From: a virus
DNA length: 48,867 bases
IMG/VR virus record: IMGVR_UViG_3300021376_005073
Coordinates: 1-48,867 of that record
Reading direction: 5' to 3' (one strand)
Position numbers and translations under genes: made by a program. The notes beneath the pieces are model-generated. The model made no database searches and was not told the DNA's origin. It saw nothing but the letters and a program-made list of their open reading frames with translations. Of this stretch, positions 5,207-21,691 are shown piece after piece. Positions within the stretch are counted from its first letter, which is position 1. Every line of letters starts with the position of its first letter.

Positions 5207-8200
5207 CTACTCCGTCGGGGCGGAAGGTGCGCCGTCTGTGAAGTTGTCCGTCCTGCGGAACCACTTCTCGAATTCTTCGGCATCTAGCCCGAGCCTCTCC
5301 ACCATTTCCCTGACCTTGGCCATGGGGAGAAGCACCGACCCCTTCCCGCCGAGCCTGTCGGGTTTTATCCTTAGACGAGCACCCCTGCCCGCACGTCCGA
5401 GGGCCTCCTCGATGGATCTGATGGATCTTCCCTCTTCAAACAGCCCCATTTCGATCAGGGCATCCCTAATCTTCTTCGCGGAACTCCCGCCCAATTCCCT
5501 GAATCCAGGCCACTGGCCGAACTCGCCGTCGGAAATCGCATCCCGTCGCGCGAGGTCACTCTCTTTGAGTATTTTCTTATCGACCAATTCTCTGGCGTAT
5601 CGGTTTGGCAGGTATCCCGCTCTTTGCATTTGCCTGTAACGCTCCTCACTCCAGGGTGTCCCCTTGTCGTTGACGAACGGAAGGCCAGAGGCCCTGACGT
5701 TCCGCATCATCGCACCAGCGCTCAGTGCATTTCCGTTGTCGTCGGTGAGCCTGACCCTTACCCCCGTATTCTCGAACAACTTGTCCTCGAATTCGCGCAG
5801 GCTCATTTCCCCGACTGGTCGGGATGGTTCGGCCGCATCCCGGCGCCTCTCGATGATGTCCCTTTTGCCGGCGCGACCAGCCCGAGCCGCCAGTCTCGCC
5901 GTACGGCGGGCCCTTTCTGCGTCAACGGCGGCATCAATCTCATCCGGGCGATCCACCATTGCACCCGTGTCGTCAAAGTAAGCGAGCGGGTCAAATCCGA
6001 ACAGCCCCTCTCGCTGACCCGTACCAAATCCCAGTTCCAGGGCAATCTTCTCCGCCAAGGACGGGTCATCTATGAAAAACTCCGGGGAACCCTTGCGTCT
6101 GGAGTCAAACAAACGCCTCACCGATTCCTCGTCTAGGCCGACCCTGGAGTCGGGGCCGAAACGTTCCATGAAGTCATCAATGGTTAACGGATAGAACAGG
6201 ACTTCCTCTTCCAAGGTGAACCCGCCGTTTCCGTCGGGTACTTCCACATTGTGGTAGAGCGGCGTGTCCGAGACCAAGGCATCCCATTTTTGTCTTTTAC
6301 CCGATGCGGTTATGCGTTCAAGTTTCTCTCTGTAGTTATCCCACATCTTGTTCAGGGATATGTCCTTGCCCGGCCCGTGCTCGCCGCCCTCGAACACCTT
6401 CGTGGGGTTCACCGGCATTTCGGAATCCCTCTCGGTATCCGCCATCGATGCGAAGCCGTCCCACTCCGATGCGTCTGGGCCGCCGCGGCGCTTGCCCGGT
6501 CGCTTGCGCGACCTCAGTACGTTCCTGTCCGCGATGTTCTGCCTGTCCTCTTCGGAGTAGCGAGTCTTCGGCGCCATGCCCTCGCGCCTCTTGCCCTGGT
6601 TGCGGCGACCGGGGCGGCGGCGACGCCCGCGCGAGGCGAAGCCGTCGCCTTCCAAGGGGCGCGAGGCATTCGCTTTCCTCTCGTCCAGTTCCGCCGTCAA
6701 CCGCTCGACGCGGCGTTTTTCAAACTCGTAGCCGAACAGGCCCTCTTCAATCCAGTCGGCAGAAGGTGGCGTTTTCCAAATTTCCGAATCTGGGTCATCA
6801 AAGAATGTAGTCAAACTGTCCGAGAGCAGATTGTCTGGGACGGACGGAGCATCGTAATCATTGAATGCCTCATCCTCCCTGTACCTCCTCTCGAAGGAGT
6901 CGGGCAATTCTGACACCATGTTGTCCAGATCATCCAGTACGTCGTCGACACCGGATTCGGTTGTGGCTTCTTTGAGTCTCTGCCGAAGTCCATCCAGCTT
7001 TGCCATGTCTACATCCCTCACGTATGTTCCGTGTTCGAGCGTTTCGGATTCCATCCCGTCATAGCTGTCGCCGCTGCTCTCCCCCTCGAAGAAGTCCTCG
7101 ACTTCGTCGATCAGGAGGTCGTAATCCTCCCTCTTGGCATTGATGAATTCCTCATCCGAATCCCACGAGCTACGCCTTTCGCTTGACCCAGCGCGCACCC
7201 TCTTGGCGAGTTCCTGTGCTTCGCCGAGGGCATTCGCCGAGGCATTCATCTTCGCCTCCGCGACAGACTTGTCAGTCTTATACCTGTCAAGCAAGGAGTC
7301 GACAGTATCTATGGCCCTGTCGTACTCATCGAGGAGATCTTGGTCATCCTCGTCTGGCGAGACGTCGTAGATGCTTCGCACCTTCTTGGGGGCAACCCCA
7401 TTCGCGCGCGCCATCTCGCGGGCGGCCTGATTGCGGGCATTGATGAGTCGTTCGCGATAGTCCACTGCCTCTGAGGCATTCATTCGATTTACCGTGCTGT
7501 CCAGCCTTTCAATTTTCCCGAATTCGCGCCTCATGTCATCCGTGCTACGGCGACGGCCGCGCGAGGCGAAGCCATCGTCGTAGAGCATCATGTCGGCCAG
7601 CGCATCGCTTCGACCCCTCCAATCGAGGTAGTCCTTCTGTAGCTGTCGGGCGTACGAGGTGGCCTCGCGCTTGCCCATGCGCTGCCGCTTCATCTCCTTG
7701 GCGATGAGCTCATCCAAGTCCATCGTTCCATCTTCTTCAAAACTTTCGCCGTAGACGCTGCTGAGATACTGCTCCAGGTCCAGGAGTTTTTCCCTCTCCG
7801 CGTTTACGTCAGACGAATAATCATCGTCGTCCCTGTCGAGTGCGTAGTCAAAGCCACTGCGCGAGGCGAGCCCTTCGTACGCAGAGTCGGGCAACTTGCG
7901 GCTCGTGGTGAACTCGTAGTTGTCCCTGACCTCGCGCATCGTCGCGCCGCGGCTGTCCGACGCCTCGATTCTGTCGACCACGTCCGGCTCGACGCCGTCG
8001 TAGGTGTAGACCGTGCCGGTCCCCTTGCCGTCGCGTCCTCGGTACTCGACCGAGAGCCTGCGGTTCATCTCGTCGTACTCGACGGAGTTGAGGGCGGAAC
8101 TGGACGAGACGTCGATCTTGCGCGGCTTGGACGACTGGCCCATCCCGACGGCCTCTCGCTCGAGTTCGGCTATTCGCCTGTCGTCCATCGCCAGCTTCCT

Positions 8201-11200
8201 GGCCTCGTCGAGAATCTGCTCGGTCGTCATCCCGGAGTCGCGGTTGTTCGCCAGCGCCCTCTGGAAGTACATGTTCTGGTCGGCGGAACTGAGGCGGGTG
8301 AAATTGTCAACTGCTCTCTGCGCATTCAGGGCGTCCATGTCGGCGCCGAAGTCGGTATCCTCGCTCGGGCTGAACTTGTCGAGGGAGAAGTTCTTCCTCA
8401 CTCCCTCCGCATCCTCCCCGACCATGTTGAAGCGGCCGGGCACCTTCGGGTTCTGCCAAATCTCAACGGGGGTGAGCTCGCGCTCCTTGCCGTTGTACGA
8501 GAACTTGACCTTCTTGCCGTCCTTCATCGCCTCGCGTATCGCGCCGATGAGGCCGTTCGTGTCGCCGCCCCTCGCCCGGTCGATGACGTCCCTGCCGAGG
8601 GAGACCGGTTGCGGGAGCGTGGTGCGAGAGGCGAGTCCTTCGCCCGGCATTCGTCTTCCCGTGTCCCCGATCGGCGGCAGGCCATCAATCTCTCGCTCGA
8701 TGTTCATCAACTTGCGCTGCGCATCCTCGATGCGCTTTTCCATGTCGTCGTAGGCGCGGCGCTCCATCGGGTTGTCGCGGTCGAGTATCTGCTGATCCTG
8801 GATCATGCTGCGTATCTCCGCGCGCTGCTCGGTCGCCGCCCTCCTCAGGCTCGTCTTGGTCGGTGCGCCGGCGGCGCGCGAGGCGAAGCCGTCGGAACCC
8901 CCGCGGACCGGTTTGCCTCTCGAGAACGTTGCACTGTCCCTGTTCCACCTGTATGTTGTGTCTTTGCCGCGTCCATAATCTGGGTAACGTGCGGTTCCCT
9001 CGTTTAGGTCTTGGAACTCGAAAACTTTGTCGACTTCTTTTTGGATTTGTCTCCAAAGTGCATTTTCTTCCTCTTGGCTAAGAGTGCCATCGCCCCTGTC
9101 CCCCCTGGCTACGTCGCTCAATTGACCCACAAACGCTTCGGGATTGTCTTTCCACCCATACATTCCCATGAGAATGTCGTTAGCAAGTTTCTTTCCAGCT
9201 TCTTGTCTTCGCCGTGCATCGCCTTCATCTTCGCCCGCATCGGTTCCGTCGATCAGGTGCGCGTCATAGAGGGCTGCCAATAGGGCTTGCTTGACGTTTC
9301 TCAATGCCGCCCTATGGGTGTTTATCTCTTTCTCGAGGCGCTTTATCAGTTCGGCATCATCTGGGTCGTCAATATCCGGAAGCATGCCTGCATTGTCCGG
9401 CGTAACTGGGTAAATTTGCTGACCCCCCGCTTCGGCCATTTCGCTGGCGATCAGGTTCCGGAGTGACTCCAATGCCTCCACGTCGTCCACCATCTTCGCA
9501 ATACCCTCTGATGAGGGGACCAAAGAATCGAGCTCGCTGGAACTTAGCCTGTCTACGCTACTTTTTTCTGCAAATTCGCGCACCCTGAGCGATGGACCGT
9601 GCTCTGTGATGGCGTCAGTCACTTCTTCTTCGTACTGCCAAGTGCTGAACCTTCCGGCGCGCGAGGCGAAGCCGTCGGAATCCCTGTTGAGTCTTTCCGC
9701 TCGCTTCCTGACCCCATCCACGATGCTTTGTGCCGAGGCGAGTTCAGAGGAGGAAACGTAATCCGTGTTCTTGATTAGTTCTTCTGCGGTGATGAGGCTG
9801 CCGTATCTCTGGAATCGATTATCGTCATCGACACCTTGGCGAATCAGGCGGTCTATTTGCTTAAGCAACGATTCGGCTGCTTTGGCTCTGGCTGCCTTGG
9901 CATCATTGTTCCATTGATCAATTGCCAAGTCTCTCTCTTCTTCTAGATCAATGTCCGGCTGGGCCACCCTGTCAATGTTGTCAATGCTGTCTTGGATGAT
10001 TTGGTCTTGTACTTCCCAATCCAGCTCATCGAAGTCCATCCACTCGGATTGGATTACCAGTGCCCTTTCTCCGCTCGAGGCGAAGCCGAGATCGTCTTCG
10101 GGATCGAACCCCGGGTCGTCGCTCGGAATTCCACCGTCTTCACCGGTGCCGAAGTCGTCGCCGGCGAGGCCGTCGAAATCCATGAGGCGCCACTCGTTGG
10201 CGTAGTCGTCAATCGCCCTCTCGCGGGCGTCGGCATCGTTCCTGCCGCCCGCCTCTGCGACCCTTCTCTCCTGCTCATCAATCGGCAGGTTGTCAAAAGC
10301 CGCCCTGTCGGCCTCCGAGACTTCCGGGGTCGGGTCGTCAAAATCGTCGTCATCGCCGCGCGAGGCGAAGCCGTCGTCGGTGAATGGGACTCCGCGCTCG
10401 CGCGTGCCTTCGAGCTTCTGGATGCGCCTTATCGCCGCCCCGAGGAAGTCGGTCGTACCGATAACCTCGTAAATTTGACCGTACCCGCCACCATCCGGTG
10501 CTCCGTCGTAGTCGCCGCTCAATTCGACGATTGCGTATCTCTTGTCCCTGGTGGGAACTATGTACCGAACCTTTGCCCCGTCGGCACCTTCGGTGCCAAG
10601 GGCGGCACTGCTGATCTCATCATCGGTATCCGGCGCGAACACGAGAATTCGGTCGAAGATTTCGCCGATGTATTCATCGCTTTCGCCCTCGTTGAACACC
10701 CCGGCGGCAACCATGTCCCGCTCGAATCTCCTCGCTGCCCCGGTATCCTCGAGGTTGACTATCTCAAGCGGTGTCTGAAGTTGCGCGGATTCGTACGAAT
10801 AGTTGCTGGCGAGTTCCTGCTCCCTGATTTCGCCAAGGCGCTGTCCGCGCGAGGCGAAGCCGTCCCTGCCCATCTTCTCCTTGAGTCGCTTGTTGAGTTC
10901 CGCCTTTATCGCTCGCGCCTTCGGTCCCCTGTATGTCTGCAGGTTGCCGAGCGCGTAGGCGACGATGCTCTGCCCGGAATCCTCGCCGAAGCGGTCGTCT
11001 ATGGAATCCATGGTCGACATCGCGTCGATGTACGGAACGGCCCCGAAGTACATTTCCTTGCCCTGCTCGGCGAGGTCCCTCCGGATCATTCGCGCCAGTT
11101 CGCCGAGCGTCGCCCCCTCGATGCGCTTCTGTGTTTCGGCATCGACGGATGGCTTCGTTGACGAACCGCGCGAGGAGAAGCCGTACTTGCCGGAACCCTC

Positions 11201-14200
11201 TAGGTCGCTCAGGTAATCCTCGTAGGCTTTTTCTGCGGCGAGGGAGAACGCACGACCCACGTCACCCTCCGTGTTGCCGATCGCCGCCTCGAAATAATCA
11301 TCCCAGAGGGCATCGCTTCGTTCCCAGTAGTCGGCGATTCGTTCTGCCTCGTCTCGGTCGATATCGCGGAAATCTTCCAAATCGTTGATCAAGTCTTCTT
11401 TGGTGAAACCGCCGTACCATTTGTACTCTGCAGGGACAAGGGAGTCGTCGCCGCGCGATGCGAAGCCGTCGCCTTCGTCACCGAAACGGCGAGGATAATC
11501 GCCGGATCTTCGATCGGCAGCAAAGTGCTTCTTGATTCCCTCTCGCGCCTTGTCCAAGGTGTCGTGGGTGGCGACGACTTCGGTGTTCACGCTTCGACTC
11601 CCGACCAGACGCCCGTAGTCGTTGTAATCGCCGTCAACATCGCCGTGGACCTTGACGACTGCGAAGCGGCCGTCGGGGGTTTTCACGATATACATGGCGT
11701 GTCTGTCAATGTCGTCGGGATCTCCTATGTAGAGGATGTCGTAGGGTCGGGCATTTTGCGCTATGTACACTTCCTTCAGTTCTCCGCCGTCAACCCGCTC
11801 AAGTATCGCATCCACGACACTTTCATCGTCGCTGACGCCGTTCAACTCATCCAGTGCGTCATAGCTGTCGTAGGCTGTCGCTGGGGTGCTGAGTAGGCCG
11901 ACGTTGGCACCGCGCATTGCGAAACCGTCGTCGCCCTCAGGCTCGCGTGAGTCGTCTATGCGACGGACGAAATCCTTCGCTTCTTCGAGGGTGTCGAATG
12001 TTTCGTCAAAGTACTCTTCGTCGTAGTCGGTGCCGCCGTCCCTTTGGTAACTGTAACCGTGGGCCGCATCGACTCCGAATTTTCCATCCTCATCTCGGGT
12101 GATCGTGTAGATGGAGTCGCCACGGCGTGCCCTCGGGTTGTTCCCGACCGCATTCCATGTGCCGCTACCTCGTTTTGTCTCTTCCCAATCAAGTTCACGG
12201 CCGCGCGAGGCGAAGCCGTCAGACCCGCCAGCGGCCCTGCGCATATACCGCTCATGTTCGGCCGTGACCCTTTCCAACAACGGGGTTCCCGGACCCAAGT
12301 CCTGACGCTTTCTCCTGAACTTGTCGTTCGTCGCAGTGAGCCGGTATCCCGAACCCGAATTCAGCTTTTCTTCAACGGCTTCACGAGCAATGTCGCGCGC
12401 CCGTCCGTAATCGCGAACACCTCGCTCGATGATGGATGTCTGGGTTCTGCTTTGATTCCCGGTGCGATCCAAGACATCAGCGTCCTCTAGTTTCCCCCAT
12501 TCTTTGACGACGTCGTATCTGCCGTCGTTCTTGACGATCATCACGTTCCACTGTTTGTAGTTGCCCACCCGGCCGCGGTCACCGGTGCTCGGTGCGAGCA
12601 ACTGCCAGGCATTGATGGAATCGTATTGATTCTCTACTTCTGGGAGATCGTCTGTTTCGTCGTACACACTTCCTTTGCCTTTTTCGTGCATGGCCCGTGC
12701 TCGTTGTCGGGCGTTCGCGCTGACCTCGCGGGGTGTCAAGGGGAATGAGCCATATCCTCCAGATGCGAAGCCGTCGGAGCCCTCCAGGTCGCTGAGGTAA
12801 TCCTCGTAGGCTCTGTCTGCGGCAAGGGAGAACGCCCTTAATACGTCACCCTCCGTGTCGCCGATTGCCGTCTCAAAATACTCATCCCAAAGGGCATCGT
12901 TTTGCTCCCAGTAGTCAGCAATTCGTTCTGCTTCGTCTTGGTCACGATTGCGATCAAGTTCCAAACCATCAAGCAATTCTTCTTTGGAGAAATTGCCGTA
13001 GCGTTCAATCCCGTATCCGACGTACCGTTCTGGGGCAAGATTCCTGCTGGGGTCGTAACCGCGCGATGCGAAGCCGTCGCCGTCCGTGGCGTCGGATCCT
13101 GCTCGATTCCATTGTTCCTCGGTCAGTCCGAAGTTCTCTAGGTAGTGCTCCCTGTGGGCTCGATCTACGTCTTCGCGGGAATCGCCAGGTCCACCGAAGA
13201 GCCGGCCTTCCTCCACCAGCATCCCTTTTATGTCCTTGTAACCTGCGACATCCTGAGACTCGAGCGCGGCATCTGCTTCTTCGTACAACTTTGCCACGTA
13301 ATCCTCGTACGAGGACTCCTCACCCCTCGGGTAGCCCGTGTAGTAGCCATCTTCACCACGGTCGCCTGAGTATGAACCCCTGACCATCTTGAGCGCATCG
13401 GCGAGGCTGCCGATTCGCGTGAAGTCCTTCCTGGCTTTGCCACCCTCCTCTTCGGGGTGGGTTATTTCCCTGACCGCGCGACCCATGCTTTCGGCATCAA
13501 CCAAGTTGGTCATATCTGCCTTCAGCACGTCCTCGTAGTGGTAGATGCTGCCGTTCTTGAACATGACCATTACTTCGTTGTCAAAGTAGCCGATTTCTGT
13601 TCGACCGGGTTTGCCAGATTGACTGCTCCTCTTTATCCACACTCTCTTGACGGCGGAACTGTCGCCCACGCCGATTTCGGCCCATTCACCCTTGGGCAAG
13701 AAGTTGAGCAACCAGTCGTTTTTGGCTCGGACGCCTTTGGAGTTCGGGCGCGAACCCCAGTGGACGGCGGTCGGAACCATGTTTCCGTTACCGTCATCCA
13801 TCATTACGATTTCTTCGCCGAGGTTCTGGTTTACCCTGCTTTCCATGTCGTCGCGAATTTTTCGGGCTCTCGGATCTGGCCTATATGGATCATCAACGTC
13901 CCCGCTGCCCATGTACGGGTAATCTCCGTAATCGTAATTCTGCATTCCGGCGCCTCGGCGCCGCGTGGTCGATCCGCGCGAGGCGAAGCCGTCGCCGTCA
14001 CGAGCCATCCTTGCCTCGGCCTCGCCAACGAAGCGGTTGTCAAGGGCTGACTCAAGGTTGAGGAGTGCGGCCCGATCCTCCATGAGTTCACCAATGCGAG
14101 AGTTCACATCCTGTCCGTAGGTGTCCTCAAATGAGAGTTCCTGGCGTGGGCTCAGTGATTCAAGTCGCCTCATCTCTTTTTCTACTGAGTCAATTTCTGT

Positions 14201-17200
14201 CCCAACTGCTGAGAGCATTTCCCGAGCTTCCGACCTACTCAGTGTGTTGGCGAAAGCGGTCGAGGCTTCCCTGTCGGATGCTTCGTCATCGCCCCACGAG
14301 TATCTGGAGTAGTTTGCTTCTGGATCGGTTCCGCGACTGCGCCTGCCATCTCCGTAAGGATTGTCAATGTACTGCGAAATCCTGTCGCGTATGCTGCCGC
14401 TGCCGCCGCGCGAGGCGAGACCTGCTTCACGATTCTTTTCATCTGAACCGAGGCCGTACACGCGCTTGTCGTAGTCGGTCATTCCCCTGCCCTCGCCGCG
14501 CAGGTTCGGGCCTTCGTCGGAGACGACGTTGTGTCCCTGTCGGCCGGCGTAGGAGCGGGCGCGGATGTAGCCGCGCTTCCTACCAGTTGGCGACTGGCCC
14601 TGCTTCCTACCCTCGTACCAATTCGCAGAACTGCTCGTCAATTCAATTTCGTTGGCATGGAGCAACTCGCCCGTTTCGGCATCGCGAACTGCAATCGTGT
14701 CTGGACCGCGTCTCTTACCCTTTCGCGGACCCTTGGTGTATGTACCGACACCCCTTGCTGCTCGCAGTGCATCAACGGTCGTACCATTGCCTTCTGCTTC
14801 GATTATTTCGTCAAGTGCACCCTGCTCCATGGTGATAGTGACATTCCGGTTGCGGACTCGCTTGCCACCGCGGGGCGGCCTGCGCGTTGGCATCTTCGGC
14901 TTGGCGACTGGTGCCGGGTCAATTTCGGTTGTCGTATCTTCGTCAAGGTTCCCGACCCCGCGAAGTATTCCCTCAAACGACTCAAGGTGATCGCTTGCGG
15001 GCACGGAACGGGCAGCCTCCTGTTCGTACTTTGCACCGTTTGTTCTGTTTGTGGCCAACAAGCCCCTGTAGTTGCCGTCGTCGTCGCTCAAGACCAGAAT
15101 GTCAAAGTCCCCCTTTGACCATTTGCCACCCTCGCCCTTTGACCAACCAGCACTTGCCATATCTGGTTCGCCCTTGGCCTTGGTTGGCACCTTGCGAACA
15201 TCGTGGGTGCGCTTCACGTCGTTGATTGCGCGACCCTTGCTCGGCGCCGAACGGACCGCATCCGCCTCCTCGCGCGTAACGCCCGAGTAGATGTAGCCCT
15301 TGCCGCCGGAGTAGACGACGGTGAGTTCTTCCTTGTCCGGGTCGTAGGTGACCTTCTCGACCGCCTCCGAACCGCGGACGTCGAATTCCTCGATGCCCCC
15401 GTCTTCGTCTCTGCCGCCGGCCCACTCCCCGTCCTTGCGGTACGGGTGCGCTCGCTTGATGTCGTTCATCGCGCGGCCCCTGCTCGGGGAGCCCTTGAAG
15501 CCCTCGAACGTGTCCCTGTCCACGCCCTCGTAGATGTACGTGCCGCCGTCCTTGTACGTGACGCGGAGTTCCTGCGTGGACGGGTTGTAATCGACGGCGT
15601 CCAGCGCCGACGAGTAGGTCACATCGACGGACTCGACCCCCGGTGCGTCGCCGGCCATGTCGAGCTCGCGCCTCGCCTCGTCCAGTTCCCGCTCGACGCG
15701 CGCCTCCGCATCGTCGTCTGCCTCTCTTGCGAGCAGGCGACTCTTTATTTCCTCGACGGCATCCGGAAGGTTGTCAAATCGCGCCGAGTATCCGTCTTCC
15801 CACATTCCTGGGGTTTCACTATCGCCACGATCCCAGTACTCAGGTGTGACCACATACTCACGGGCATCGGGATCGTACTCAACCCTGAACCGCGACTCAT
15901 TCTCTCTCCTGCCAACAAGGAGTTGCGGAAGGCCGTCGGGGGCCTCATCGTCGTACTCGACTCTCGTTCTCGGTGGGTCGTACAGGCCGACGAGAGAGGA
16001 GGCCAATTCGTCCAATTTCTTCCGACGCAATTTATCCTTGTTTTCCGCTGCCTGCCTCGCCTCGCCCTTGTCCGCGTCGGAAAGTCCCACGATCTCCTCT
16101 GGGGTGGCCTTGCGCACGTTCTTGCGGCGCTTGATGTCGTTTATCGCCCTGCCGACGCTCTCTGCATTCTCGACGCCGATTGCGTCGTCCATGCTGACGC
16201 CCTCGTAGACGTACATGTCCCCGCGACCGTCCTCGCGCTTGTAGGCGACGAACAGGCTCTCGCTCTCCGGGTCGTACGAGACGTAGTCGACGGCTTGACT
16301 CGGCTTGATGCCGAGGCGCCTGGTCCGTCTGCCAACGGAGGCGAATCCGTCTTGGTCGCCGTACTGCGCCCGCCGCGCCATGTGGGCGTCCGACATGCGC
16401 GCGTACGCCTGCTCCGCGTAGTTGAGGAGATCCATGTCCGGCCTTGTGCTCAATCTCCTGCCGTTGGCGAGATCCGCAAGGTTGTGACCCATCTCGTTCT
16501 GGTCGAGGTAATCGCCCAGCATCGAGTTGACCCAATCAATTTGGTCGTCCTCCGAGAGGCTCGCAAAGTCGAGGTTCTGCGCGAGGATGCGCTCCTGTGT
16601 CTGGTTGACCCAGTCCCTGTCCTGGTAGCGCGGCTCGACCCCGATTCTCTTCCCCGGTGTGCGGGGCTTCAGCGGCCCGCCGCGCGAGGCGAAGCCGTCC
16701 TCTCCAGCGAACACAAGGTTTCTTTCGGCCATTCTGTCGAGGAAGTTTTTCTTTGCCTCGGTTGGCGAACCACCAACAAGGGTGATTTGCATTCGCCTCG
16801 TTCCGCGGTCCTCCTCGCCTGCGCCGCGCCCGCCCGTGACCATGGCAGAGACGGTTATGTAACCAGTTCCTCTTTCCCTCTGGACCGACATTGGGGTGGT
16901 GTTGGAGCGCGGAACGCGACGTGGCCTTGACGAGCTCGAGGCGAAGCCGTCGCCCAATCCACGCCCAGGACGGTAATCGTTCACCATGTTGACTAGGTCG
17001 GCGATTGCCTGTCTCTGGGTGCTCCTCGTCGAGGGTTTCTCTAGATAGAGATTGGCGAGTTTCCTAATCGCCCTACTCTCTTGTGTCGTGAGTTCTTTGT
17101 CAGAGCCGAAGCGCACCTTGTCAAGACCACTCATTGCGTCCCTGTATTCACGGCTAGAGAATTCCTCAGATAGGAAATCCCTGTTCCCTCGTCGCATCAA

Positions 17201-20200
17201 CCAGATTCCATCGTCTATGAAGATGCCACTAGAAGCGAACCCGTCGGCAGGCTTCGCCTTGGCCACGTCCTGTATCCGCTCGTCCCTTCCGAAGAAGTTG
17301 AAGTTGTCCTCGTCGGTCGCCTTGCGAGCCCTCTTGAGTTTCTTGAGGGCGTTGATGTGCTTGCCCTTGCTCTTTACGGCGGCGAGTTCCTGGACTTCCT
17401 CCATGCTGACATCCGAGTAGACGTACCAGCCGATGTCGCGCGAGTCCTCGTACAGTTCCTTGGCGCGGTCGTCGATTTCCGTGTCCGACAATGGACGCTC
17501 GTAACCGCCCTGACCGCGTCTCGCACTGGCGCGATCAATCCAGTTCTCGCGCTCTTCGTCGCCGAGGTCGTCCCACGACTTGCCCTTCAGGAAGCCGACC
17601 ATGAGCTCGCGGCTGTTGTCGTCGTAGAGGATCCCGCCGAGCGCCGACGATCCCGGCGTGCGGACCCTGTGCAGCGATGCGAACCCGTCGCTCGCCCCGA
17701 CGAGCGCCTCGGCCTTGTCCGGCGCGTCGACCTCCGGTGCCCTCTTCCCAGTGTCAATGCCGCCGAACAGCTTGCGCAGGTTCGGGGACTTCTCGAGCAT
17801 GAAGTTGACGGCCGCCTGCGCATCCTTGAACGCCCTGTTGAGGGCGTCGGGGTCGTCCTTCAGGAGCTGTATCCAGCCCTTGATGTACGGCGCGTGATCC
17901 TGCCGGAACGGTGCCTCTATGCCGTGGGCCGCGAGCACCATCGCCGATCCGATTTCGGCGACGAGTTCCTCGTACGCCCTCACCTTCTTGTCTGACGAGT
18001 ACTCCGCGAGGCTGGCGCGCTTGAGGCGCGAACTGTGCCCCGTCCAGTGGACCGCCTCGTGCGCGAGCGTCGATGTCCACTCGAGCGCGCTCGTCCCCTT
18101 CGCGAAGTCGGGCATCGAGATGTAGTCGCCGTCGGGGCTGTAGTGGGGCGTCATGTCCGCCGTCTGGACGGTGACGCCTAGTTCCTTCAGGGTCTCGTCG
18201 AGTATCGCGATTCTCTCCGACTCTGGGAGGTCGGCGGGGATCGCCCTCAGCGCCTCGTCGCCGCCGTCGGTCTGGTCGACGTTGAATACGGTCGCGCCGC
18301 GGAAGACCACGAACTCCTTGAGGTTGCCGTCTTCGTCTTCCTTCTTGACGAGTTGCGGACGGAGAATCGGGATGCCCTTCTCTCCCTTGCGGACGATCGC
18401 GCCTCGCGCCTTGAGTTGGTTGAAGCCGGCGAACCTTCCGGTGTTGTACTTCCTGTCGGCGGCGGCGAGCATGAGGAAGAACGCATTCATTCCCCTGTAC
18501 GGCTTGCCGGTGGTCGGGTTGATCGGCAGCGAATCGCTGCGCCATGACGGCTTCCATGTCGATGGGTCGGCGGTCTCGAGTTCGGCGATGAGCCTGTCTT
18601 TGACGCCACTTACAAGTTCGTCAAGCTTGGATTGCTTTACTTCTTCGTCGTTGCCGCGGCTGGCGAAACCGAACGGCTCGTCCCAGCCTTCCTCGTCGTC
18701 GTCCGGAACATCAAAGCCCCACATCTTCCAGTACTTCTCAAGTATGGAATCAAATACCTTCGCCGCCGCACTATCTTCTGGCTTGGATCCGAACTCCCCC
18801 TCACCGCGCGAGCCGAAGCCGTCGGAGCCCTCCAGGTCGCTGAGGTAATCCTCGTAGGCTTTTTCTGCGGCACGAGGGAATGCACGATTTACGTCACCCT
18901 CCTCGTCGCTAATTGCCTCCTCAAAATACTTGTCCCAAAGGGCGTCGCTTTGCTCCCAGTAGTCGGCGATTCGTTCTGCTTCGTCTCGGCTGTGATTCCG
19001 ATAATCTTCCAAACCATCAACCAAATCGTCGTAGGAGAAATTGCCGTATCGGGCATACTCCTTGGGAGCAAGATCTGCGGTGGGGTCGTCACCGCGCGAG
19101 CCAAAGCCGCTTGCCTCCTCGGCATCTGCCTCGGCGCGCGCACGATCAGCATCATTCATAAACTCGTACGGGTCGGCGTCCTCGAACGCTTCTTGAACTA
19201 CTTCATCAAGGAGATCGGGGTTGTTGAGAAGGTCGTTCTCGTCGTATTCAGAAAGAAATCTGTCTCTTTCCTCCTGCGACAGGCGCGACCAGTTGATGTA
19301 CGGTCTGTCGTCCGAATCCGGATCAAAGTCAAGCATTGACAAGTCGCCCTTGCGGAACTTGTCCAGCCTCTTCTTGTTCGCTTCGGCCAACTTGCGCGCG
19401 GCGTTCCTCTGCTCCGTCCTCGCCTTCCTGATCTTGGCGTTGCGCTCGTCGCGCGCCTTCAGGAGGGCGCCGACGTACTCCCCGACGTTCGGATCCTCGG
19501 CGGTGAGCAGTCTCGCCTTCCCGGCATCATCCAGTTGCTCCCATGCCTCGACGGCATCGCGCGCTTTCTCCTTGGACGAGTTGGACGGTTCCCTGTTGCC
19601 CCTCCACCCGTCGCGCCTCGCGACCTCGAGCATTATCTCGGTGTTGCTGAATGGCCTTTCGCTGCCGCCGCTCGAGGCGAAACCCTCGTCGTCCTCGCCG
19701 TACTTCTCGATGTACTTCTCGAGCGCATTGTCCAGCGCGGCATCTGCCTGCTCGTCAAGTGCTCTCTCGCGCTCGCGCGAAGCAAGTTCTTCGGCGTCCG
19801 GCTCTTCCTCTGTTATGTCTGGCTTGGCTGGCTTTGGCTTGTCAGTTGCATCCGGCTTGGCCCGATCCGGCTTGGCTGCATCTGGCTTGTCAGCCTCTGG
19901 CTTGTCAACCTCTGGAACCATTGCCTCTGGCACTTCACGCTTTGCTGGCGGAACAAATTCTTGACCGAAGGTTTCTGCATACGAGGCTCGCCTCTGGAAG
20001 TCGTGCGAGACCTTCAGCAACTCCTCGTCGATGCGCTCCTTCTCCGCGCCGGTCGCCTGCCTCCTGGCGTTTACGAGCCTGTTGCCTTCCTTGGTGAGGT
20101 CGGCCTCCGACATGTCCCAGTACTTCGCCAGACCCTCGTTGTCGGGGCGTCGGTTTGCGAGGTAGGCGACGTCCTCCCTCGTCTCCGGCTCGATGGTGCC

Positions 20201-21691
20201 GGCGGTAAGCGCCTCATTGCGCTGAGCGCGAGTCCATGTTTTCCTGTCCTTCGGCAACTTCGGAGCGGAGCGCGGCTTGTCGAGCAGCGCATCGCCGCTT
20301 CGCTTGCGACCACGGACATCCGGCAAATCAAAGCCGGGCTTCTTGATCGGAATGTACGGTCGCATGAATGCGCTGCCGTCCTGCACGAAACCGTCGCCGT
20401 CGCCGTCAAGCGCATACGGGTTGAACGTCTGGGCGAGGTCGCGAATCTTTCCGATTGCCTGACCGATGTTCCCGCCGGCCTGACCGATCGTCGCGCCGAG
20501 CGCCTTGACCGCGTTCTGGAGGGCGTCAAGCGCGTTCGCCGTGAGCAGACCGTCGATGATTATTCCCTTGGTGCTCGGCTTCGCCTTGAGCCTGTGGTGC
20601 CGCAGGACCGGCGAGAGGAAGTCCCTCGCGCTCTGCATGTACACGTCCGGCATCTCGATCAGGTGCGATATGCCCGACTTGCCCCACGGCGATTCGACAG
20701 ATTCGCCGCCGCCGAACATGCCCATCATCTCCATCTGGTCGTCGGTGCGGTAGGCGATGCCGCCGTTCGGTACCACGACCGGCGCGCCTGGTTTCTGCTC
20801 AATGTTCTGAGTCGCCTGCGGTGCCGTCGGCGCGGATGCGTACGGCTCCGGCTTGCCGAACATGTACTGGTTGCCCTCGCGGTGGTACGGGAGCCTGTAC
20901 ATCGACGCCTTGCCGTCCTGTGTCGTGCGCCTGAACACGACGCTGTTCTCCGTCGCATTCATGACTTCTATCTTCGATCCTGTGCGCTCGGCGAGTTCCG
21001 CCTGCAACGCCGCCTTGTCCGGCTGCGAGAGTTCCTGCGACATTCCCTGTGCGAACGGGTCGCCCTCGCTGGATCCGTCGGCGCCTTCCTGCGGCGCGGC
21101 GATGACGACGATCCTCGGGATCTGCGGCATCATCGGCATTCCCATCCCTTGCATCGGGATGACCGGCATGCCGCCTTTCTCGTCCGCCTTTATCGAGATT
21201 GTCCCGGTGAGCTGGTTCGCTCCGTGCAGGACCGGCGAGACTTCGTAGAGTTCGACTTCCTTGAGGATGTTCGCCTGCAGGTTCGGGTCGAACACCGAGT
21301 CGATCGTCTTGTAGCCGATCGACCATTCCTGCTCCTCGCCGAAGAAGGCGACGGTAGCGAAGGCTTCCTTGCCCTTCTCGGAGTTCAGGTTGAATTGGAC
21401 CTTCGCGTAGAGGCCGCCGATGCCGGCGTTGCGCATCTTTGAGGGGAGGCGCGAGTCGCCGACGGGCACCTCGTACATCTCCAGCACCTTGCCGATCGGG
21501 TCATTCCACGAGTGCCCCCACACGACTCGCGGCTTGCGGTGAGTCAGGCTCTTGGCGAACGCGCCGCTGATGACGACGTCGCCCACGGAATCCTTGTTGC
21601 CGATTCCGGCGACGAAGCACTCGACTATCCCCTGCGCCTCGTCTATGTTGACGTTGCCAGAGTTACCAGACTTGAAGAGAAGATTGTCCAT
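5207..21691 (-). CDS. Giant prohead-protease polyprotein, 5494 aa, with 27 GFASRG-type motifs
   Basis: One uninterrupted frame of 5494 codons starts with ATG just after the portal gene. The N-terminus is an HK97-type prohead protease (S78/U35 family); such enzymes are usually about 200 residues, so this protein is some 25-fold longer. After residue 670 the chain is divided by 27 copies of a G-(F/L)-(A/S/G)-(S/M)-x-x motif into segments of 50-642 residues. Recognisable segments are an ArdC-like anti-restriction domain with zincin motif, six KTSC domains, a WYL-like domain, three near-identical 90-residue modules and an Arg-rich peptide. The mix matches the polyvalent proteins described in phages and conjugative elements, which enter the host with DNA. 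I infer a self-processing cargo polyprotein packed in the prohead. The alternative is one enormous repetitive structural protein whose motifs are only linkers. Confidence 0.93.
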   Translation of the reverse strand: MDNLLFKSGNSGNVNIDEAQGIVECFVAGIGNKDSVGDVVISGAFAKSLTHRKPRVVWGHSWNDPIGKVLEMYEVPVGDSRLPSKMRNAGIGGLYAKVQFNLNSEKGKEAFATVAFFGEEQEWSIGYKTIDSVFDPNLQANILKEVELYEVSPVLHGANQLTGTISIKADEKGGMPVIPMQGMGMPMMPQIPRIVVIAAPQEGADGSSEGDPFAQGMSQELSQPDKAALQAELAERTGSKIEVMNATENSVVFRRTTQDGKASMYRLPYHREGNQYMFGKPEPYASAPTAPQATQNIEQKPGAPVVVPNGGIAYRTDDQMEMMGMFGGGESVESPWGKSGISHLIEMPDVYMQSARDFLSPVLRHHRLKAKPSTKGIIIDGLLTANALDALQNAVKALGATIGQAGGNIGQAIGKIRDLAQTFNPYALDGDGDGFVQDGSAFMRPYIPIKKPGFDLPDVRGRKRSGDALLDKPRSAPKLPKDRKTWTRAQRNEALTAGTIEPETREDVAYLANRRPDNEGLAKYWDMSEADLTKEGNRLVNARRQATGAEKERIDEELLKVSHDFQRRASYAETFGQEFVPPAKREVPEAMVPEVDKPEADKPDAAKPDRAKPDATDKPKPAKPDITEEEPDAEELASRERERALDEQADAALDNALEKYIEKYGEDDEGFASSGGSERPFSNTEIMLEVARRDGWRGNREPSNSSKEKARDAVEAWEQLDDAGKARLLTAEDPNVGEYVGALLKARDERNAKIRKARTEQRNAARKLAEANKKRLDKFRKGDLSMLDFDPDSDDRPYINWSRLSQEERDRFLSEYDENDLLNNPDLLDEVVQEAFEDADPYEFMNDADRARAEADAEEASGFGSRGDDPTADLAPKEYARYGNFSYDDLVDGLEDYRNHSRDEAERIADYWEQSDALWDKYFEEAISDEEGDVNRAFPRAAEKAYEDYLSDLEGSDGFGSRGEGEFGSKPEDSAAAKVFDSILEKYWKMWGFDVPDDDEEGWDEPFGFASRGNDEEVKQSKLDELVSGVKDRLIAELETADPSTWKPSWRSDSLPINPTTGKPYRGMNAFFLMLAAADRKYNTGRFAGFNQLKARGAIVRKGEKGIPILRPQLVKKEDEDGNLKEFVVFRGATVFNVDQTDGGDEALRAIPADLPESERIAILDETLKELGVTVQTADMTPHYSPDGDYISMPDFAKGTSALEWTSTLAHEAVHWTGHSSRLKRASLAEYSSDKKVRAYEELVAEIGSAMVLAAHGIEAPFRQDHAPYIKGWIQLLKDDPDALNRAFKDAQAAVNFMLEKSPNLRKLFGGIDTGKRAPEVDAPDKAEALVGASDGFASLHRVRTPGSSALGGILYDDNSRELMVGFLKGKSWDDLGDEERENWIDRASARRGQGGYERPLSDTEIDDRAKELYEDSRDIGWYVYSDVSMEEVQELAAVKSKGKHINALKKLKRARKATDEDNFNFFGRDERIQDVAKAKPADGFASSGIFIDDGIWLMRRGNRDFLSEEFSSREYRDAMSGLDKVRFGSDKELTTQESRAIRKLANLYLEKPSTRSTQRQAIADLVNMVNDYRPGRGLGDGFASSSSRPRRVPRSNTTPMSVQRERGTGYITVSAMVTGGRGAGEEDRGTRRMQITLVGGSPTEAKKNFLDRMAERNLVFAGEDGFASRGGPLKPRTPGKRIGVEPRYQDRDWVNQTQERILAQNLDFASLSEDDQIDWVNSMLGDYLDQNEMGHNLADLANGRRLSTRPDMDLLNYAEQAYARMSDAHMARRAQYGDQDGFASVGRRTRRLGIKPSQAVDYVSYDPESESLFVAYKREDGRGDMYVYEGVSMDDAIGVENAESVGRAINDIKRRKNVRKATPEEIVGLSDADKGEARQAAENKDKLRRKKLDELASSLVGLYDPPRTRVEYDDEAPDGLPQLLVGRRENESRFRVEYDPDAREYVVTPEYWDRGDSETPGMWEDGYSARFDNLPDAVEEIKSRLLAREADDDAEARVERELDEARRELDMAGDAPGVESVDVTYSSALDAVDYNPSTQELRVTYKDGGTYIYEGVDRDTFEGFKGSPSRGRAMNDIKRAHPYRKDGEWAGGRDEDGGIEEFDVRGSEAVEKVTYDPDKEELTVVYSGGKGYIYSGVTREEADAVRSAPSKGRAINDVKRTHDVRKVPTKAKGEPDMASAGWSKGEGGKWSKGDFDILVLSDDDGNYRGLLATNRTNGAKYEQEAARSVPASDHLESFEGILRGVGNLDEDTTTEIDPAPVAKPKMPTRRPPRGGKRVRNRNVTITMEQGALDEIIEAEGNGTTVDALRAARGVGTYTKGPRKGKRRGPDTIAVRDAETGELLHANEIELTSSSANWYEGRKQGQSPTGRKRGYIRARSYAGRQGHNVVSDEGPNLRGEGRGMTDYDKRVYGLGSDEKNREAGLASRGGSGSIRDRISQYIDNPYGDGRRSRGTDPEANYSRYSWGDDEASDREASTAFANTLSRSEAREMLSAVGTEIDSVEKEMRRLESLSPRQELSFEDTYGQDVNSRIGELMEDRAALLNLESALDNRFVGEAEARMARDGDGFASRGSTTRRRGAGMQNYDYGDYPYMGSGDVDDPYRPDPRARKIRDDMESRVNQNLGEEIVMMDDGNGNMVPTAVHWGSRPNSKGVRAKNDWLLNFLPKGEWAEIGVGDSSAVKRVWIKRSSQSGKPGRTEIGYFDNEVMVMFKNGSIYHYEDVLKADMTNLVDAESMGRAVREITHPEEEGGKARKDFTRIGSLADALKMVRGSYSGDRGEDGYYTGYPRGEESSYEDYVAKLYEEADAALESQDVAGYKDIKGMLVEEGRLFGGPGDSREDVDRAHREHYLENFGLTEEQWNRAGSDATDGDGFASRGYDPSRNLAPERYVGYGIERYGNFSKEELLDGLELDRNRDQDEAERIADYWEQNDALWDEYFETAIGDTEGDVLRAFSLAADRAYEDYLSDLEGSDGFASGGYGSFPLTPREVSANARQRARAMHEKGKGSVYDETDDLPEVENQYDSINAWQLLAPSTGDRGRVGNYKQWNVMIVKNDGRYDVVKEWGKLEDADVLDRTGNQSRTQTSIIERGVRDYGRARDIAREAVEEKLNSGSGYRLTATNDKFRRKRQDLGPGTPLLERVTAEHERYMRRAAGGSDGFASRGRELDWEETKRGSGTWNAVGNNPRARRGDSIYTITRDEDGKFGVDAAHGYSYQRDGGTDYDEEYFDETFDTLEEAKDFVRRIDDSREPEGDDGFAMRGANVGLLSTPATAYDSYDALDELNGVSDDESVVDAILERVDGGELKEVYIAQNARPYDILYIGDPDDIDRHAMYIVKTPDGRFAVVKVHGDVDGDYNDYGRLVGSRSVNTEVVATHDTLDKAREGIKKHFAADRRSGDYPRRFGDEGDGFASRGDDSLVPAEYKWYGGFTKEDLINDLEDFRDIDRDEAERIADYWERSDALWDDYFEAAIGNTEGDVGRAFSLAAEKAYEDYLSDLEGSGKYGFSSRGSSTKPSVDAETQKRIEGATLGELARMIRRDLAEQGKEMYFGAVPYIDAMSTMDSIDDRFGEDSGQSIVAYALGNLQTYRGPKARAIKAELNKRLKEKMGRDGFASRGQRLGEIREQELASNYSYESAQLQTPLEIVNLEDTGAARRFERDMVAAGVFNEGESDEYIGEIFDRILVFAPDTDDEISSAALGTEGADGAKVRYIVPTRDKRYAIVELSGDYDGAPDGGGYGQIYEVIGTTDFLGAAIRRIQKLEGTRERGVPFTDDGFASRGDDDDFDDPTPEVSEADRAAFDNLPIDEQERRVAEAGGRNDADARERAIDDYANEWRLMDFDGLAGDDFGTGEDGGIPSDDPGFDPEDDLGFASSGERALVIQSEWMDFDELDWEVQDQIIQDSIDNIDRVAQPDIDLEEERDLAIDQWNNDAKAARAKAAESLLKQIDRLIRQGVDDDNRFQRYGSLITAEELIKNTDYVSSSELASAQSIVDGVRKRAERLNRDSDGFASRAGRFSTWQYEEEVTDAITEHGPSLRVREFAEKSSVDRLSSSELDSLVPSSEGIAKMVDDVEALESLRNLIASEMAEAGGQQIYPVTPDNAGMLPDIDDPDDAELIKRLEKEINTHRAALRNVKQALLAALYDAHLIDGTDAGEDEGDARRRQEAGKKLANDILMGMYGWKDNPEAFVGQLSDVARGDRGDGTLSQEEENALWRQIQKEVDKVFEFQDLNEGTARYPDYGRGKDTTYRWNRDSATFSRGKPVRGGSDGFASRAAGAPTKTSLRRAATEQRAEIRSMIQDQQILDRDNPMERRAYDDMEKRIEDAQRKLMNIEREIDGLPPIGDTGRRMPGEGLASRTTLPQPVSLGRDVIDRARGGDTNGLIGAIREAMKDGKKVKFSYNGKERELTPVEIWQNPKVPGRFNMVGEDAEGVRKNFSLDKFSPSEDTDFGADMDALNAQRAVDNFTRLSSADQNMYFQRALANNRDSGMTTEQILDEARKLAMDDRRIAELEREAVGMGQSSKPRKIDVSSSSALNSVEYDEMNRRLSVEYRGRDGKGTGTVYTYDGVEPDVVDRIEASDSRGATMREVRDNYEFTTSRKLPDSAYEGLASRSGFDYALDRDDDDYSSDVNAEREKLLDLEQYLSSVYGESFEEDGTMDLDELIAKEMKRQRMGKREATSYARQLQKDYLDWRGRSDALADMMLYDDGFASRGRRRSTDDMRREFGKIERLDSTVNRMNASEAVDYRERLINARNQAAREMARANGVAPKKVRSIYDVSPDEDDQDLLDEYDRAIDTVDSLLDRYKTDKSVAEAKMNASANALGEAQELAKRVRAGSSERRSSWDSDEEFINAKREDYDLLIDEVEDFFEGESSGDSYDGMESETLEHGTYVRDVDMAKLDGLRQRLKEATTESGVDDVLDDLDNMVSELPDSFERRYREDEAFNDYDAPSVPDNLLSDSLTTFFDDPDSEIWKTPPSADWIEEGLFGYEFEKRRVERLTAELDERKANASRPLEGDGFASRGRRRRPGRRNQGKRREGMAPKTRYSEEDRQNIADRNVLRSRKRPGKRRGGPDASEWDGFASMADTERDSEMPVNPTKVFEGGEHGPGKDISLNKMWDNYREKLERITASGKRQKWDALVSDTPLYHNVEVPDGNGGFTLEEEVLFYPLTIDDFMERFGPDSRVGLDEESVRRLFDSRRKGSPEFFIDDPSLAEKIALELGFGTGQREGLFGFDPLAYFDDTGAMVDRPDEIDAAVDAERARRTARLAARAGRAGKRDIIERRRDAAEPSRPVGEMSLREFEDKLFENTGVRVRLTDDNGNALSAGAMMRNVRASGLPFVNDKGTPWSEERYRQMQRAGYLPNRYARELVDKKILKESDLARRDAISDGEFGQWPGFRELGGSSAKKIRDALIEMGLFEEGRSIRSIEEALGRAGRGARLRIKPDRLGGKGSVLLPMAKVREMVERLGLDAEEFEKWFRRTDNFTDGAPSAPTE
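5210..6439 (-). other. C-terminal segment of the giant protein (residues 5085-5494)
   Basis: This is the last and second-longest motif-free part after segment 1 and the three-KTSC segment. It contains a Trp/Tyr-rich N-terminal part, an Arg/Ala-rich helix (about 5275-5310) and a compact C-terminal half with VRVRLTDDNGNALSAG, a TPWSEERYRQMQRAGYLP block and a final LLPMAKVREMVERLGL helix. I recognise no family. It is the only segment bounded by the motif on one side only. Confidence 0.5.
6458..6625 (-). other. Arg-rich basic peptide segment (residues 5023-5078)
   Basis: About 56 residues lie between the motifs at 5017 and 5079. They are dominated by Arg, Lys and Gly (RRRRPGRRNQGKRR at the start, RSRKRPGKRRGG near the end). 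This composition is typical of nucleic-acid-binding or DNA-condensing peptides. If released in the capsid it could neutralise packaged DNA; that role is inferred from composition. Confidence 0.6.
7874..8620 (-). other. WYL-like domain followed by KTSC domain (residues 4358-4606)
   Basis: The first ~75 residues read as a small beta barrel of WYL type: I..A...GKKVKFSYNGKERELTPVEIW, a G/V strand pair, then KNFSLDKF, matching the usual v.f.Y.g..R...P pattern and the closing F.ldri element. WYL domains are ligand- or nucleic-acid-binding modules, often in phage-defence regulators. A KTSC domain follows (about 4524-4597) with SSSALNSVEYD and YTYDGV. The WYL call rests on pattern only. Confidence 0.55.
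10373..12754 (-). repeat. Family of beta-rich mini-domain segments (residues 2980-3158, 3165-3255, 3262-3408, 3617-3773)
   Basis: Four segments in this span share one layout: a strand ending in I/V, a charged turn with DGR(Y/F) or DGKF, a second strand such as YDVVKEWG, FGVDAAHG, FAVVKVHG or YAIVELSG, an Asp/Gly/Tyr-rich loop, then a helix such as TLDKAREGI or TLEEAKDFV. Segments 3262-3408 and 3617-3773 are the closest pair (KTPDGRFAVVKVHGD versus PTRDKRYAIVELSGD). I infer duplication and divergence of one small domain of unknown function. A DYWEQ-type module (copy 3) and an unrelated segment (3510-3610) are interspersed. Confidence 0.6.
11183..11449 (-). repeat. DEAERIADYWE module, copy 3 (residues 3415-3503)
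   Basis: Third copy, with DEAERIADYWERSDALWDDYFE, EGDVGRAF and AYEDYLSDLEGSG. It ends in the variant motif GFSSRG. Plus-strand 11185-11234 closely matches the equivalent parts of copies 1 and 2. Confidence 0.85.
12773..13057 (-). repeat. DEAERIADYWE module, copy 2 (residues 2879-2973)
   Basis: Second copy, slightly longer at its N-terminus (an extra GIERYGNF element), with DEAERIADYWEQNDALWD, EGDVLRAF and AYEDYLSDLEGSDGF. The plus-strand DNA at 12776-12825 differs from 18823-18872 at only a few positions. Copy 2 is more than 5 kb away from copy 1, so the duplication moved across other segments. Confidence 0.85.
13076..13972 (-). other. Segment with KTSC-like domain (residues 2574-2872)
   Basis: It starts with a basic and Tyr/Asp-rich region. 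A KTSC-like domain at about 2668-2750 has GDSSAVKRVW, a beta hairpin with MVMFKNGSIYHYEDV (YxY present) and an ESMGRAVREI helix. The C-terminal ~110 residues are acidic and helical with a DYV.KLYEEADAAL block. No enzyme motif is visible. Confidence 0.65.
14423..16330 (-). other. Longest internal segment: three KTSC domains plus basic C-terminal region (residues 1788-2423)
   Basis: This 636-residue stretch has no GFAS-type motif. KTSC copies lie at about 1788-1862 (YVYEGV), 2010-2087 (YIYEGV) and 2100-2167 (YIYSGV), each ending in an (A)NDIKR or (I)NDVKR helix with RK. A WSKG-containing beta-rich part follows, then a highly basic Gly/Lys/Arg region (about 2235-2400) with TYTKGPRKGKRRGP-like composition that could bind nucleic acid. 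Between the first two KTSC copies is an unassigned ~130-residue region with a beta-rich pattern. If motifs are cleavage sites, this would be released as one three-KTSC protein. Confidence 0.75.
17243..17668 (-). other. KTSC domain split by an insertion (residues 1342-1483)
   Basis: An SSALGGILYDD...LMVGF start is separated by about 50 residues from a YVYSDV block and SKGKHINALKK...RKAT end. Both halves match a KTSC domain, in which a beta hairpin with a YxY motif is followed by a basic helix. KTSC is a ~60-residue domain found on some lysyl-tRNA synthetases and as stand-alone bacterial and phage proteins; RNA binding has been suggested but not shown. The insertion contains a charged helical stretch and makes this the most divergent copy. 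Confidence 0.65.
17687..18652 (-). other. ArdC-like anti-restriction segment with zincin-like metallopeptidase (residues 1014-1335)
   Basis: This segment lies between the motifs at 1008 and 1336. The N-terminal half matches the ArdC ssDNA-binding region, with conserved-looking blocks W.P.W, NP.TGKPYRG.N.F.L and GFNQLKA.GA.VRKGEKG. The second half is a polyvalent-protein zincin: HEAVHWTGH beginning at residue 1211, then RL, then a downstream EELVAEIG carrying the expected third zinc ligand. ArdC proteins are known from conjugative plasmids and phages, where they protect incoming DNA from restriction. Its placement in a protease-headed polyprotein suggests release and injection with the genome; that step is inference. 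Confidence 0.88.
18821..19090 (-). repeat. DEAERIADYWE module, copy 1 (residues 868-957)
   Basis: First of three ~90-residue modules, each flanked by the short motif on both sides. Shared blocks are YGNF, DEAERIADYWEQSDALWD.YFE, EGDV.RAF..AA and AYEDYLSDLEGS. The DNA near the C-terminal end of the module is almost identical to copies 2 and 3, which indicates recent duplication. It is predicted helical and acidic. I do not recognise a known family. Confidence 0.85.
19685..21166 (-). other. Linker region of segment 1 with calcium-loop-like DGDGDG motif (residues 176-669)
   Basis: This part follows the protease and precedes the first GFAS-type motif at residue 670. It has a Met/Pro/Gly-rich stretch (about 175-195), an Ala/Gln-rich region, a Gly/Ala helical stretch (about 390-420) and an aspartate-rich loop DGDGDGFVQDGS at residues 429-440 that resembles a calcium-binding EF-hand or dockerin loop. 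A Pro/Lys/Asp repeat region follows around residues 590-630 with recurring KPD/KPE units. I recognise no catalytic domain. It may act as the protease's own delta-like or scaffold-binding part; that is inference. Confidence 0.6.
21167..21691 (-). other. HK97-type prohead maturation protease domain (residues 1-175 of the giant protein)
   Basis: Features typical of the caudoviral prohead serine protease family are present: GDVV..GAF..SL at residues 37-49, the catalytic-His context VVWGH at 56-60 followed by PIG, the catalytic-Ser context EWSIGY at 122-127 (Ser124), and LYEVSPVL..AN at 148-159. In HK97-like phages this enzyme digests the scaffold or delta domain and itself inside the prohead. Its gene normally lies right after portal, as here. 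All expected catalytic-region residues look intact, so I infer an active protease. Confidence 0.92.

Follow-up and report, generated by a model that had tools for sequence, protein, structure and literature searches.

Positive-strand RNA viruses encode polyproteins in which chains of modules are separated by repeated boundary sites that are uniform within each virus and differ between viruses. Among phages, a comparable arrangement is met in the polyvalent proteins, large multidomain proteins of the late region that include, e. g., ArdC-N and zincin domains, and for which the sections of the original survey considered here propose processing by the zincin and draw an analogy to RNA-virus polyproteins (Iyer et al. 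2017, PMC5512222). A second point of reference is gp245 of phage SPN3US, which recognizes one motif (A-X-E) in several packaged proteins and favors Ser at P1′; its 14 sites are distributed over nine proteins, the capsid protein among them, and 13 of them are removals of N-terminal propeptides (PMC10052503). In addition, the injected head proteins DarA and DdrB of phage P1 are trimmed by a phage protease before packaging (PMC12810830, PMC5512222). The locus described in the following has several effector-type domains in one late-region polypeptide (ArdC-N, MPTase-PolyVal, and KTSC repeats), as is characteristic of polyvalent proteins. A motif with Glu at P1 that is common to the capsid protein, as in T4, phiKZ, or SPN3US, was not found: the motif recurring here has no P1 Glu and is missing from the capsid protein.

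The window, i. e., the whole stretch of 48,867 nucleotides that was analyzed, is a linear viral contig with Pfam matches to terminase and portal (Table 1). It presumably stems from a contractile-tail phage, the sheath and tube being assigned from the gene content and order in common with Gordonia phage DalanDe. A scan of genome contigs for portal relatives, meant to point to the host, found none. Between two ParB-like proteins (29093-31483), a PP-loop protein resembling PAPS reductase or DndC was noticed by eye, and these genes possibly serve DNA modification. Next to the portal gene, a single open frame on the minus strand occupies about a third of the window, and the initial annotation was right in describing one frame of 5494 codons headed by an S78 (HK97-type) protease domain with intact His60 and Ser124, both of which are invariant in 27 relatives. 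A frameshift or assembly artefact was ruled out, as complete relatives have unbroken ORFs of about 2000-4900 codons. The protease assignment is further supported by a match to the head maturation protease family phrog_80 (E 7.3e-26). For a putative assemblin-like fold, T4 gp21 was the best PDB match, with a probability of 0.93 but a TM of 0.45 and an E of 0.058, and herpesvirus proteases were among the weaker matches; a sequence search of the PDB with the S78 profile gave no match. Its gene lies between portal and capsid, the portal adjoining it and the capsid gene being found downstream in 18 relatives. Past the protease region, an EF-hand-like loop (DGDGDGFVQDG, aa 429-439, 20375-20407) was noticed that has similar counterparts in several relatives.

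Table 1. Features of the window and, in one row, of relatives (positions in nucleotides; residue numbers refer to the polyprotein unless stated otherwise).
Feature	Position	Strand	Remarks
Portal protein gene	21785..23797	(-)	upstream of polyprotein; Pfam Phage_portal E 1.7e-51
Polyprotein ORF	5207..21691	(-)	5494 codons + stop, single open frame
S78 (HK97-type) prohead protease domain, aa 18-164	21200..21640	(-)	Pfam Peptidase_S78 E 6.7e-12, 46 bits, cut-off 21
Candidate S78 self-release site S-I-K168↓A	21179..21196	(-)	end of protease domain; putative cleavage
Junction motif GFASSG, aa 670	19667..19684	(-)	coil, pLDDT<50
Junction motif GFGSRG, aa 862	19091..19108	(-)	coil, pLDDT<50
Junction motif GFGSRG, aa 958	18803..18820	(-)	coil, pLDDT<50
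Junction motif GFASRG, aa 1008	18653..18670	(-)	ArdC module left end; coil, pLDDT<50
ArdC-N + MPTase-PolyVal zincin, aa 1029-1287	17831..18607	(-)	Pfam E 3.5e-22 and 2e-31; anti-restriction-type, 328 aa motif to motif
Junction motif GFASLH, aa 1336	17669..17686	(-)	ArdC module right end; coil, pLDDT<50
Junction motif GFASSG, aa 1484	17225..17242	(-)	coil, pLDDT<50
Junction motif GFASSS, aa 1582	16931..16948	(-)	coil, pLDDT<50
Junction motif GFASRG, aa 1666	16679..16696	(-)	coil, pLDDT<50
Junction motif GFASVG, aa 1782	16331..16348	(-)	
KTSC domain, best of several	15461..15613	(-)	Pfam E 1.2e-25, 2 stretches in its chunk
Further KTSC domains	near 17348-17431, 16136-16300, 13469-13573, 7943-8104	(-)	Pfam
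Junction motif GLASRG, aa 2424	14405..14422	(-)	
Junction motif GFASRG, aa 2568	13973..13990	(-)	
Junction motif GFASRG, aa 2873	13058..13075	(-)	
Junction motif GFASGG, aa 2974	12755..12772	(-)	
Junction motif GFASRG, aa 3159	12200..12217	(-)	
Junction motif GFAMRG, aa 3256	11909..11926	(-)	
Junction motif GFASRG, aa 3409	11450..11467	(-)	
Junction motif GFSSRG, aa 3504	11165..11182	(-)	
Junction motif GFASRG, aa 3611	10844..10861	(-)	
Junction motif GFASRG, aa 3774	10355..10372	(-)	
Junction motif GFASSG, aa 3869	10070..10087	(-)	
Junction motif GFASRA, aa 4007	9656..9673	(-)	
Junction motif GFASRA, aa 4268	8873..8890	(-)	
Junction motif GLASRT, aa 4352	8621..8638	(-)	
Junction motif GLASRS, aa 4607	7856..7873	(-)	
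Junction motif GFASRG, aa 4707	7556..7573	(-)	
Junction motif GFASRG, aa 5017	6626..6643	(-)	
Junction motif GFASMA, aa 5079	6440..6457	(-)	
p470, conserved protein of 472 aa	3744..5162	(-)	no junction motif; candidate conserved K↓S site GVKSADVG at 4593-4616
ORF3, at least 1246 aa	3..3740	(-)	cut by contig end; holds zincin, KTSC, two junction motifs
ETKAALG near ORF3 start	3636..3656	(-)	candidate S78 site; Lys conserved 20/20
Junction motif GFASLG in ORF3	3021..3038	(-)	
ORF3 zincin region	1836..2588	(-)	HEGAH at 2217-2231, third ligand E588; candidate reader
Junction motif GFSSMG in ORF3	612..629	(-)	
GLASRA in tape-measure protein, aa 45	36893..36910	(+)	
GFASRG in tape-measure protein, aa 647	38699..38716	(+)	
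Second giant ORF of relatives	L128-L129 (G001 93698-103153); L136:11525-19603; L142:836-10900; L146:9355-18690		6-10 own-motif copies

Beyond the protease, the polyprotein is divided by a short motif for which 27 copies had been claimed, a count that holds to within one or two: G[FL][ASG][SM] matches 28 times, one match (GLGSDE at aa 2413) being doubtful. Chance or low complexity is ruled out as its source by 2000 protein shuffles, in which the mean was 1.1 and the maximum 6. The residue ahead of it is Asp at 20 of 27 sites, in line with the described preference for a preceding Asp or Glu, and the longest segment from motif to motif (aa 1782-2424) indeed has 642 residues. In a structure model of aa 650-1700, which was folded from 17 sequences and is weak overall (mean pLDDT 59.5), all 8 motifs lie between folded blocks in coil with pLDDT<50, a class that comprises 31% of the model residues.

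Most of the giant ORF has no family match apart from the Pfam domains in Table 1. Counted from motif to motif, the ArdC module spans 324-330 aa in 7 phages and in several contexts (in G040, it is C-terminal and has 377 aa), and its ends follow the respective phage, being GFASRG-like, LGSR-like, or RLSSG. Similarly, the window has three copies of a module of 95-101 aa, which start at aa 866, 2877, and 3413 and all extend from motif to motif. Among homologous internal segments whose neighbors differ on both sides (n=235 pairs), the length ratio is at least 0.9 in 45%, as compared to 9% of random pairs. This comparison with relatives bears out that unrelated domains meet at the motifs, and the inter-motif segments appear to act as exchangeable units that adopt the motif of the local phage. 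As a blastp self-comparison of the polyprotein listed no paralogue matches, probably due to culling of self matches, the segment comparison was used instead. Single-linkage clustering fused many segments into one family, probably via KTSC domains and multi-module segments, and family numbers were hence used only where lengths and alignments agree.

Altogether, 473 viral contigs encode a close relative of the S78 protease, and the stretch from portal toward capsid was taken in full or nearly so for 18 of these relatives. Motif discovery was carried out for each phage by an unbiased word count followed by motif refinement. In 19 phages, each phage repeats its own motif, which is uniform within the phage and differs between phages: DGFASRG in the window and G001; G[FL][AG]SRG in G012, G006, G010, and G009; PLGSRS in G018; GLASST in G019 and G037; GLAS in G020; R[FL]SSG in G040; FASTS in G017; GLSSGA in G026; RL[AT]SGR in G030; LRSSG in G038, G028, and G027; SGL[RS]S in G023; and a weak motif with only 6 sites in G015. 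G029 and G031 have STRS. Common to these motifs is a core consisting of a hydrophobic residue (Thr in STRS), any residue, and Ser. Three cultured relatives (Gordonia phage DalanDe, Brevibacterium phage Cantare, and Streptomyces phage Gilgamesh) have homologous S78 and portal proteins as well as large proteins encoded between portal and capsid, in which word counts found no repeated junction motif.

The motif is not confined to the polyprotein, and its further copies in ORF3 and the tape-measure protein go beyond what had been annotated. It is, however, restricted to a few large late proteins: in 8 genomes, the phage's own motif reaches 18-34 copies per 10,000 residues in the portal-to-capsid ORFs vs about 0-5 elsewhere, and the outside matches fall mostly into the tape-measure protein and one second giant ORF. 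It is missing from portal, p470, p660, and capsid protein, save for one match in the G020 portal. The second giant ORF of the relatives (2693-3355 aa) has Pfam matches to RNase_T, GNAT, and NUDIX. When motif models trained on head-region ORFs only were run on both kinds of protein, the own model found 6-10 sites in the second giant ORFs as compared to 0-2 for dissimilar foreign models, and in the tape-measure protein, it ranked first among nine models in 6 of 8 phages. In most phages, the high-scoring tape-measure sites are found around residues 41-58 and 583-684 (48 and 650 in the window; 24, 583, and 592 in G020; only the second region in G028). As far as these distributions indicate, the motif is a genome-wide code that extends beyond any single ORF. 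A different, nearly invariant element with Cys (RCPxG...F.D....TC) was noticed in ORF3 (3120-3140) and its homologues, with similar stretches in p660 and p470 of relatives; possibly, it is a common element for packaging or capsid binding.

We favor, with a probability of roughly 0.58, a reading in which the giant ORF encodes a modular polyprotein of virion-associated proteins and the junction motif is the site for a trans-acting, phage-encoded protease, with the ORF3 zincin as the leading candidate, while S78 most likely acts separately. The motif would mark flexible junctions between folded modules, and the protease would cut them in the polyprotein, the following ORFs, the second giant ORF of the relatives, and the tape-measure protein. 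S78 at the head of the chain would most likely have the usual role of a prohead protease, cutting at conserved K↓[SAG]-type sites and releasing itself after K168, and a second, fast-changing protease would most likely read the motif, with the ORF3 zincin as the best candidate. The products, among them the ArdC anti-restriction/zincin module and the polyvalent-type KTSC modules, are expected to travel with the virion and to act early in the next host. Processing sites are thus our best reading of the motif; the cleavage predicted from it, the enzyme, packaging, and injection are what we infer from the sequences, and the few weak sites of G015 count against it.

The case for the ORF3 zincin starts from its HExxH motif and downstream Glu (H504, E505, H508, and E588), which are invariant in 20 of 20 phages, and from the high divergence of the rest of the domain. 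Zincin identity distinguished pairs of phages of the same motif class from those of different classes with an AUC of 0.991 (0.955 after S78), a correlational value obtained with only 7 same-motif pairs and subject to the caveat that fast-evolving proteins separate close from distant pairs anyway. Among six close phages, zincin identities were 43-55% for same-motif and 20-32% for different-motif pairs, while those of S78, capsid, and p470 overlapped between the two groups. Flanking parts of ORF3 and the p660 protein likewise follow the motif class; after regression on four neighboring proteins, the AUC was 0.653 for the zincin and 0.902 for p660, and across 19 phages the rank correlation of motif distance with zincin distance was weak. 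Given the 7 pairs, the neighbors that follow too, and the modest residual, the ORF3 zincin should be regarded as the leading candidate for the reader of the motif rather than as a demonstrated enzyme.

Alternatively, the fused S78 prohead protease itself may cut the junction motif inside the prohead, as the initial annotation had proposed. In its favor, it is fused to the head of the chain in most relatives, a single motif is known to direct an S78 protease to several packaged proteins in the case of SPN3US gp245 (PMC10052503), and the invariant Ser of the motif could be P1′, for which gp245 prefers Ser. We nevertheless consider this unlikely, since no protein of the cluster is better conserved than S78 (mean difference 0.18 vs 0.24 for capsid and 0.37 for portal) while the motif changes completely. 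Between close phages, S78 is 88-98% identical whatever their motifs and still 88-95% where these differ; G019 and G028, for example, have S78 proteins that are 94% and capsid proteins that are 96% identical, yet their motifs are GLASST and LRSSG. In 24 phages with many motif types, the sequence blocks surrounding His60, Ser124, and E150 do not vary. No covariation of the sites with the fused S78 was found once the zincin had been taken into account (AUC 0.501), and G029 and G031 encode the protease in an ORF of its own (460-478 aa) just upstream of the polyprotein. Finally, a tail protein, the tape-measure protein, has the motif, and the capsid protein has none but keeps a conserved [ST]IG[ED] at its likely delta boundary (preceded by Lys or Arg in about half of the cases) as a candidate site for S78. 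Of the original interpretation, the chain of modules and the non-random junction motif, resembling recognition sites of a trans-acting factor, therefore stand, while the fused S78 as its reader does not; delivery into the capsid stays unproven, as the same motif occurs in the tape-measure protein.

A different set of sites, common to the cultured relatives, looks more like a real S78 specificity. K168 at the end of the protease domain is invariant in 27 relatives, including the cultured Gordonia, Brevibacterium, and Streptomyces phages, in the context S-[VI]-K168; further candidate S78-type sites are a V-K near the start of ORF3 (Lys in 20 of 20 phages) and a conserved MGxK-[SA] in p470. This conserved K↓[SAG]-type set would suit S78 better than the junction motif does. 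E-x-K↓[SAG]-like sequences were also noticed in the capsid and large proteins of the cultured relatives (L122, L123, and L124; e. g., MEAKSLGEAF) and are a possible expression of a conserved S78 specificity. In p470 (4620-4900), a very acidic, propeptide-like stretch is located ahead of the conserved K↓S-like site.

Even less probable is that the motif remains uncut and serves as a conserved flexible linker or as a docking peptide for a phage-specific partner, e. g., the capsid interior or scaffold. Its surroundings are rich in Gly, Ser, Arg, and Asp and are predicted to be coil, and HK97-fold shells bind cargo peptides. A plain linker, however, need not be repeated identically 10-40 times per phage, capsid binding leaves the copies in the tape-measure protein unexplained, and the modules sit cleanly between the motifs.

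Regarding codon use, the motif in the window is unusually uniform (TCG in 14 of 16 Ser codons, CGC in 13 of 13 Arg codons), and some other phages have a codon bias at single motif positions, mostly Ser; modules exchanged recently, in the window by way of short homology, may be the reason. In most relatives, by comparison, motif codons hardly depart from background while the residues stay fixed, which indicates that selection on the motif acts at the protein level. A DNA-level repeat that spreads or recombines without a protein role would account for the uniform codons of the window, but is largely refuted and very improbable, as it is at odds with codon use in the relatives, with the tape-measure GFASRG (GGT TTT GCT TCT CGC GGC, four third positions being unlike the usual polyprotein codons), and with close DNA matches in the window that nearly all lie in one polyprotein reading frame.

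If the protease-site reading is true, the locus would represent in a DNA phage what polyproteins are in other viruses, and its cleavage code would vary by phage and be readable from sequence alone. As the mature ends of dozens of modules could be predicted from each motif, giant unannotated phage ORFs would become lists of separate proteins, many of them probably anti-defense, and the relatives would offer naturally occurring protease-site pairs in which to study specificity. It also becomes a question how cargo of the head and a tail protein can be served by a single code. A bolder version, to which we give clearly less than even odds, is an RNA-virus-like economy in which a dedicated, fast-evolving phage metalloprotease apart from the prohead protease cuts the tape-measure protein and the greater part of the large virion cargo at a single phage-specific motif, and in which modules pass from phage to phage and are adjusted to the motif in use there.

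Within the part of the literature on phage polyproteins that was covered, no precedent was found beyond polyvalent proteins and jumbo-phage head processing. Polyvalent proteins comprise 2-15 domains each and, in the sections of the survey considered here, have an assemblin-like peptidase only at the C-terminus, whereas the S78 domain of the window is N-terminal; the same sections describe no repeated phage-specific junction motif, N-terminal S78 fusion, or tape-measure motif (PMC5512222). Compared to SPN3US, the window has up to about 27 internal sites in one chain and none in the capsid protein, and DarA and DdrB of phage P1 undergo single trimming events as opposed to the chain of modules found here. 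With RNA-virus polyproteins, the chain has in common its modules and boundary sites that are uniform within and different between viruses; it differs in belonging to a dsDNA tailed phage, with several ORFs and a tail protein under one code, and no descent is implied. Summed up, and judged by the portions of these sources considered here, the locus combines the ideas behind polyvalent proteins and jumbo-phage processing with features found in neither, namely dozens of internal sites, a code common to several ORFs and the tape-measure protein, and differences in this code between close phages.
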